Shown here piece after piece: positions 18,476 through 25,278 of a DNA stretch of 64,000 nucleotides. A program made the position numbers and the translations under genes. This stretch comes from Thermococcus guaymasensis DSM 11113 (GTDB lineage: Archaea > Methanobacteriota_B > Thermococci > Thermococcales > Thermococcaceae), in the NCBI RefSeq assembly GCF_000816105.1, contig NZ_CP007140.1, positions 868,001-932,000 on the forward strand, given 5' to 3'. Within the stretch, counting starts at the first letter, position 1; each line of letters starts with the position of its first letter. The notes beneath the pieces are model-generated. The model ran no database searches. It saw only the letters and a program-made list of their open reading frames with translations, and was not told where the DNA came from.

Positions 18476-18553
18476 GGGCCGGTAGCTCAGCCTGGTACGA
18501 GCGCCGCCCTCGCAAGGCGGAGGCCGCGGGTTCAAATCCCGCCCGGTCCACCA
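18476..18553 (+). tRNA. tRNA-Ala (anticodon CGC)
   Basis: The cloverleaf folds fully: acceptor GGGCCGG with CCGGTCC, including a G3-U70 pair (the alanine identity element). The anticodon stem CCGCC/GGCGG carries loop CTCGCAA, giving anticodon CGC for codon GCG. The T arm is GCGGG/CCCGC with loop TTCAAAT. Discriminator A is followed by encoded CCA, as usual in Thermococcales. There is no intron. Confidence 0.96.
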
Positions 18554-19453
18554 CATTTCTGCTTTCTCCTGAGGTTTTGCTATTTGGTTTTGTGAAGATT
18601 TATCTCACATAACACAAAAGAAAACCCTGAATCCTGGGCTTTCAAAAAGCTACCAACTTTGGTAAAACTTTAGCCAGAAAAGCAACCTTTTGGAAAGAGC
18701 TTGACAATAGAGTTCCCTTCTGTAAGTTCGGTCGGGTAAAAAGCGCGCGCTGCTGAAACCTCATTATTAGATGGGTTTAACTCCAGAACTGGTTGGTTAG
18801 AGAAGTTTCAAACTTATTCTGGCGTCCGGAGGACGCCTTGTGGAAGTGAACCACTCACCGAGCAAGCTTTTTCCAAAAGCTTGACTAAAAGGGTTAAACC
18901 CTCAGAAAGAGCCACAGGAGAGTTGCATGCCGTTCAGACAGTCCGTTGGAATGGGGTTTGCTTCCATGCCGGCTTGAGAAAGGTGTTTAACTTGGAACGC
19001 GCCCGAAGGGCGCTAAGGAGAGAAACACGCTTAAAACTGGCAAGTTTAGAAGTAAACCACTTATGAGAATCGGCCATTTCAAAAAGCATGCCCCTTTTGA
19101 TGAAACTTTTCCCTAGAAAAGTTTCTCCGCCAGCGCTTGCGCAGGAAGCTTTTGGAAAAAGCTTCACCAAAAGCTTGTAGCTCTTTGCATTGTGGCGTTT
19201 GGAAAAGTTTGGTTTTCTTTCTTTTGAGAACCTGTTTTTAATGAGAACAATGAACAAAATCCGAGCTTATTAAGGGGGTTTACTTTCCTCCGACGCCCGA
19301 AGGGCGTCTTTTTAGAGTTAAACCCGATTACAATGAGTCCCTAAAGGAGTTCTCACTCAAAGCCGCTTATTTCAAGTAGAAAACCTCCCGAGAACTTGCA
19401 CTTCAAGAAGGAGCTACGAACCTTGATCAAACTTCGCCTGCGCGAAGTTTGAA
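18554..19453. repeat. Gene-free 0.9 kb between two facing tRNA genes, packed with perfect short hairpins
   Basis: No credible gene is seen. Perfect stems with 3-4 base loops occur at 18821-18837 (7 bp arms), 18863-18883 (9), 18999-19013 (6), 19102-19125 (10), 19145-19165 (9), 19292-19308 (7) and 19427-19452 (11). Two share the core AAGCTTTT/AAAAGCTT (18863 and 19145), and a diverged copy of the same unit lies at about 18683-18702. Two others share the form GCCC-GAA-GGGC. GGGTTTAACTC at 18773-18783 is matched by its inverse at 19315-19325. Fragmented small reading frames on both strands do not look coding. Confidence 0.6.
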
Positions 19454-19530
19454 TGGTGGGCCCGCGGGGATTCGAACCCCGGACCTCCACCTTGTAAGGG
19501 TGGCGTCATAACCGTCTAGACCACGGGCCC
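19454..19530 (-). tRNA. tRNA-Val (anticodon TAC)
   Basis: On the minus strand the acceptor GGGCCCG pairs with CGGGCCC. The anticodon stem CCACC/GGTGG holds loop CTTACAA, giving anticodon TAC for valine codons GTA/GTG. The T arm is CGGGG/CCCCG with loop TTCGAAT. Discriminator A and an encoded CCA follow. The D arm has the GTCTAGACGGTTATGAC form. The TATA box lies at 19557-19565. Confidence 0.96.
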
Positions 19531-25167: not shown

Positions 25168-25278
25168 TTCGGTCAGCCCCGCGAAACCTCCTCACCGATC
25201 AGGGGGCTCCAGATTCATCATCCCTACTGCACAAATGGGTTTAACTTCGTCTCCTTATAAACTTCTGGTGGTTAAGGG

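Follow-up and report, generated by a model that had tools for sequence, protein, structure and literature searches.

What could place seven perfect hairpins in 900 bp between two tRNA genes that face each other? The question was raised by a sequence-only reading of the window, a stretch of 64,000 nucleotides from the genome of Thermococcus guaymasensis. The exact count of seven was confirmed (stem of at least 6 bp, loop of 3–4 nt; starts at 18821, 18863, 18999, 19102, 19145, 19292 and 19427), as was the flanking of the block by tRNA-Ala(CGC) on the plus strand and tRNA-Val(TAC) on the minus strand, and the densest 900-bp stretch elsewhere in the window contains three hairpins. The density was said to exceed chance, and the shuffle test proposed for this claim bears it out: none of 500 dinucleotide-preserving shuffles of the block reached seven (mean 0.89, maximum 5). 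Chance clustering of hairpins could be favoured by the setting, an intergenic region with a somewhat higher A+T content, but this explanation is refuted by the shuffles, the same hairpins recur in register throughout the genus, and we give it practically no weight. As had been claimed, no gene accounts for the hairpins, since neither of the two ORFs inside the block has a Pfam match above the cut-off and an Rfam search of the block returned nothing beyond the tRNAs. The only further Rfam match in the window is a C/D box small RNA, sR23 (RF01138, 75 bits), at 25171–25223 on the minus strand.

The block is an array of non-coding palindromic modules of about 200–300 bp, and the initial observation is real and larger than first stated. 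Across loci the modules follow one scheme: a boundary hairpin (consensus [GC]AA[AG]CTTT...AAAG[CT]TT[GC]), an AYCAAR motif, a box that differs between classes, an arm (for example GGGTTTA), a central hairpin with a GC-type stem and a 3-nt loop, and then approximately the mirror image. Five classes were recognised by their inverted boxes, with hairpin ends common to all:

Class A: boxes GTAGCTC/GAGCTAC, central hairpin GACGCCC.
Class B: boxes GTGATTC/GAATCAC, central hairpin GCGCTCC.
Class C: GCATGC boxes, central hairpin AGCGCCC.
Class D: GTGCA-type boxes, central hairpin GGCGTCC or GGCGCCC.
Class E: boxes GAATGTCC/GGACATTC, central hairpin AACGCCC.

On the tRNA side, C and D modules often end in a further small hairpin, element S (ACAGCCC...GCGCTGGCGGA). 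Further small repeated hairpins are present in the islands, often at junctions (CGTCGAGCTCTGCTCGACG; GTTGAAGC..GCTTCAAC; GTGGGGCGAAGCCCCAC with TTTGAGAGTACAG; CAGCCTTT..AAAGGCTG; loci L027, L028, L134, L245, L253 and others), and module kinds thus exceed A–E and S. The central hairpins of classes A, B, C and E have a 3-nt loop that reads GAA or its reverse complement TTC (also GTA/TAC) on stems that are the same in all other positions; the orientation of the module, or inversion of the loop, may be the cause. Read outward from tRNA-Val, the array in the window consists of A, an S remnant, C, a truncated D and then decayed pieces, with the following features (strands are given for the tRNA genes):

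19454–19530, minus strand: tRNA-Val(TAC), whose 3' CCA end at 19454 is the apparent anchor of the array, with a hairpin 1 nt beyond the tRNA end.
19145–19452: complete class A module, with a boundary hairpin at both ends, GTAGCTC/GAGCTAC boxes, GGGTTTAC/GTTAAACCC arms and a central hairpin.
19427–19452: tRNA-proximal boundary hairpin of module A, 11-bp stem, loop of 4.
19292–19308: central hairpin of module A, GACGCCC-GAA-GGGCGTC.
19145–19165: distal boundary hairpin of module A, GAAGCTTTT-GGA-AAAAGCTTC.
19126–19144: remnant of element S between modules A and C, its tRNA-facing arm missing.
18863–19125: class C module, with boundary hairpins at 18863–18883 and 19102–19125 and a central hairpin at 18999–19013.
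18683–18862: truncated class D module, with a central hairpin at 18821–18837 (GGCGTCC-GGA-GGACGCC) and a decayed end hairpin at 18683–18703.
18648–18682: older class A-type module, of which a decayed end survives (AGCTACCAACTTTGGTAAAACTTT...; repeat families D5 and D8), assigned by inspection.
18476–18553, plus strand: tRNA-Ala(CGC), facing the array, its 3' end without a boundary hairpin.

The S remnant was recognised on the basis of other genomes, in which a complete S sits between the tRNA and C modules, and the C–D junction of this array recurs in loci L027, L139 and L208. Over 19 nt (18864–18882 and 19146–19164), one AAGCTTTT hairpin is the exact reverse complement of the other, and the two CGCCC-GAA-GGGCG cores are identical, so the pairing of hairpins by common cores stands. 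Their recurrence also stands, although the spacing is better given as about 100–150 bp than as 100 bp, with boundary and central hairpins alternating. The 11-base inverted repeat at 18773/19315 exists (16 nt at 88%), but it had been thought to frame most of the block, and one arm is an inner box of the D module and the other an inner box of the A module; it therefore does not frame a single unit.

The modules form a genus-wide family. The proposed BLASTN search of the block against 61 Thermococcus genomes matched 59 of them, with match ends that coincide with hairpins, and partial copies were found elsewhere in the T. guaymasensis genome, several lying behind a tRNA gene or between two. This genome contains the end motif AAGYTTSAYCAAR 13 times, against none for the reversed control; the motif occurs 6 to 76 times in each of 58 of the 61 Thermococcus genomes (control at most 3); it is rarer in sister genera of the family (0–23), and its count is zero in three members of the genus, G022, G033 and G060. 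G011 has 69 end motifs and 12 recognised class E copies, most of them directly behind tRNAs. The central-hairpin pattern alone proved too unspecific as a search probe (54 matches, control 24). No real match to the modules was obtained in the plasmid and phage records searched; exact 17-mer matches in viral contigs never extended beyond about 32 bp of a single hairpin and were put down to chance. Module A is 87–89% identical to copies in several other species, and the relatives of the class C module in the genus comparison are 74–79% identical.

The position of the modules relative to tRNA genes is precise. Among loci partly picked by similarity, 49 boundary hairpins lay within 60 nt of a tRNA end on the 3' side and one on the 5' side, most of them starting 0–6 nt past the encoded CCA. 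Loci taken from the end-motif lists, scored by reading, lay on the 3' side of a tRNA in about 6 of 8 islands in T. guaymasensis and about 16 of 20 in G011; some islands have no tRNA. The existence of the family and its targeting of tRNAs are well supported. Of the earlier suggestion of a chromosome-organising locus at a tRNA boundary, the boundary does matter, as the insertion target. In this model genus of hyperthermophiles the family is found at tRNA 3' ends throughout, and its modules would confound studies of tRNA trailers, terminators or chromatin at such loci.

The content of these sites turns over. At the orthologous tRNA-Val beside dph5, relatives hold class A, B+D+C, C, a decayed D or nothing. 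At one tRNA-Met, the flanks of G012 and G031 are alike (96% and 91%) and the module content between them has been exchanged (A, an S remnant and part of D in G012, S-C in G031); G009, at this tRNA, has S-D and then a broken A. Three C-S units of G020 share 95–98% identity, two at tRNA-Gly genes and the third at a different tRNA; their left flanks beyond the outer hairpin are largely unrelated and identity ends at that hairpin. At the other end, the identity of the third unit stops at the tRNA, and the homology of the tRNA-Gly pair naturally continues into the tRNA. Nearest neighbours lay within the same genome for 9 of 40 class A copies (1.35 with shuffled labels) and 9 of 23 class C copies (1.66); for class B this signal was weak, with no excess over shuffled labels. 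No clean target-site duplication was established: the 26-bp near-repeat at L016/L017 is the boundary hairpin itself, and other cases show DNA replaced.

These data lead us to regard the modules as non-autonomous mobile elements that target tRNA 3' ends and have accreted at the 3' end of tRNA-Val, a reading to which we assign a probability of roughly 0.7. Of the four candidates initially put forward, MITE-like insertions fit best, given the dispersed copies, amplification within genomes, turnover and sharp boundaries. The description of these insertions as decayed does not extend to the two modules nearest tRNA-Val, which have perfect ends; modules are more intact nearer this tRNA, and decay rises with distance.

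Spread solely by homologous recombination or gene conversion between similar islands and tRNA genes, with no dedicated mobilisation, was considered as another source of dispersed copies. Module A is 96% identical over 193 bp to positions 1135582–1135774 of its own genome and less so beyond, and such a difference between module halves would suit recombination. Published inversion breakpoints in Thermococcus, which fall in tRNA pairs of opposite orientation (PMC5495485), the setting of the array in the window, also speak for it. However, copies at different tRNAs have unrelated outer flanks with a sharp limit at the outer hairpin, and chance homology would not put ends 0–6 nt past the CCA, which makes recombination as the sole process quite unlikely. 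The 96% stretch (19133–19325 in the window) covers only part of module A, the rest being less similar, and its counterpart lies behind a tRNA-Arg; an exchange of module halves near the central hairpin is possible from this pattern. Arrays at facing tRNA pairs could also supply repeated sequence that feeds rearrangement.

Several points count against the mobile reading: no transposase or integrase could be tied to the modules, no autonomous version was found in the gaps inspected, no clean target duplication was established, some islands have no tRNA, and class B shows no excess of neighbours within genomes. In addition, the boxes are kept across species beyond the need of a purely selfish repeat, although mobility itself could demand such conservation. 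The modules might instead be binding arrays that the host maintains to organise its chromosome, perhaps as sites near tRNA genes at which TrmBL2 or SMC complexes load or stall, with dedicated proteins recognising boxes and hairpins and selection keeping the copies. The conserved boxes among variable spacers would fit such arrays, as would inner dyads that resemble inverted copies of a consensus site more than two pairing arms, and so would the tens of loci in each genome. In T. kodakarensis, TrmBL2 was reported in 2025 to stall SMC at tens of loci, related to DNA structure. The turnover of orthologous loci and the lack of copies in G022, G033 and G060 argue against an essential common function, and we consider binding arrays an unlikely explanation.

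The pairing within modules bears on a further candidate, a structured RNA, in which the module would be transcribed as a long tRNA 3' trailer folding into an extended rod. The arms of the boundary hairpins covary, being paired in 269 and 265 of 282 ends against about 137 and 142 when permuted (outer pair G-C in 136 and C-G in 133; fourth pair A-T in 160 and G-C in 105), with the qualification that the ends are related by descent and were selected at no more than 3 mismatches, so that these figures count sequences and not independent events. On this comparison of sequences, the boundary hairpins are units of pairing. Complementarity between the long-range arms of a module did not significantly exceed that with the arms of other copies, and RNA-like folding of the whole module is therefore not claimed; the inner dyad may consist of protein sites in inverted orientation. 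The location of modules just downstream of tRNAs and the folding of module A beyond shuffles (z of −3.1 with RNA parameters) would suit a trailer RNA, but DNA parameters gave equal or stronger values (−3.8 and −5.0), the long-range arms do not covary within copies, no Rfam covariance model matched the modules, and modules are also found away from tRNAs. Nothing positive beyond foldability thus remains for the RNA candidate, which we judge very improbable.

Returning to the mobile reading, chained modules provide evidence of how arrays would grow. We scored 31 junctions at which a module with an incomplete end abuts the complete hairpin of its neighbour. The tRNA 3' end was on the side of the complete neighbour only in 27, on the opposite side only in none, on both sides in one and on neither in three; at all 27 one-sided junctions the broken hairpin faces the tRNA, beside the intact module. 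The lost part is the outer arm; the sequence retained begins either at the loop or farther inside the hairpin. Most simply, each newcomer would have inserted between the tRNA and the module already present and replaced the DNA as far as that module's hairpin. The polarity is strongly supported and suggests growth from the tRNA end, although broken hairpins by themselves do not strictly prove which module came first: one that joined an older neighbour could have shed its outer arm in doing so, but the tRNA-Met comparison favours entry on the tRNA side. Strict insertion into the loop, with a constant outer arm kept at the tRNA, was rejected because 11 of 14 new hairpins differ in type from the old arm; a further 11 newcomers have S at their start. 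In the mechanism we envisage, a new module would insert directly behind the tRNA 3' end, ahead of the module that had been first, and would replace DNA up to the loop or inner arm of the hairpin of the latter, such that module order would record age; a trans-acting enzyme would recognise the terminal hairpins, probably as single-stranded or extruded DNA.

Mobilisation by IS200/605 (REP/RAYT) is unlikely because a Y1 (HUH) transposase is missing from the T. guaymasensis genome and most relatives (present in 7 of 41), and IS110/IS1111 is unlikely because a DEDD transposase was found in none of the 61 genomes. Cas1 is missing from the element-rich complete genomes G001, G014 and G059 and present in the element-free G022 and G060; this mismatched distribution makes Cas1 or a casposase an unlikely mover, though past action is possible. 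A tyrosine recombinase of about 280–300 aa is encoded in all well-assembled genomes, element-free ones included (one, of about 299 aa, in T. guaymasensis), and is a possible but unsupported candidate. The integration of CTX phage as a folded hairpin through XerC (PMC5495485, introduction) offers a precedent only. No autonomous parent element was found in two gaps between distant end motifs, which by inspection contained no recognised mobile gene, nor in the plasmid and phage records. Tentatively, and with considerable doubt, we propose a new mobile system in which palindromic cassettes, capped by hairpins and devoid of genes, would be integrated one after another behind tRNA CCA ends by an enzyme of the host; the resulting arrays would be polarised and would preserve the sequence of acquisitions. 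Provided that the polarity holds, insertions can be read off from the arrays as from a record, and the enzyme that moves the modules could be found in organisms with genetics.

We found no description of such modules in the open-access literature searched; a prior description in subscription papers or preprints is possible. MITEs and bacterial ERIC- and Correia-type repeats are short, non-coding, palindromic, intergenic and multi-copy, and spread within and between genomes. The modules resemble them in all these respects and, like MITEs, have inverted ends; they differ in having five classes with a common hairpin end, precise placement at tRNA 3' ends, polarised chains and no parent transposase found, and the ends shared with an autonomous parent that mark a MITE were absent from the gaps and records searched. 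REP/BIME sequences, moved by RAYT (Y1 TnpA-REP), are likewise clustered hairpin-based repeats, but the modules are much longer, are anchored at tRNAs and occur in a genome that lacks Y1. Integrative elements that enter tRNA 3' ends by tyrosine integrases, and casposons, also target this site, and their serial newcomers land beside the tRNA; in contrast, the modules are gene-less, the 3' part of the tRNA was not seen re-created, and the junction lies just after the CCA. Integron cassette arrays (attI/attC) grow from a fixed end and are polarised, as the modules are (27 to 0), and use folded single-strand hairpins as recombination sites, which would be a further likeness. However, the modules contain no cassette genes, are anchored at any of many tRNA genes and have no constant outer arm; no integron integrase was identified, the tyrosine recombinase of about 299 aa being one of a kind present throughout the genus. 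CRISPR arrays and integrons both record the order of their acquisitions, and the modules would do so without genes or spacers.
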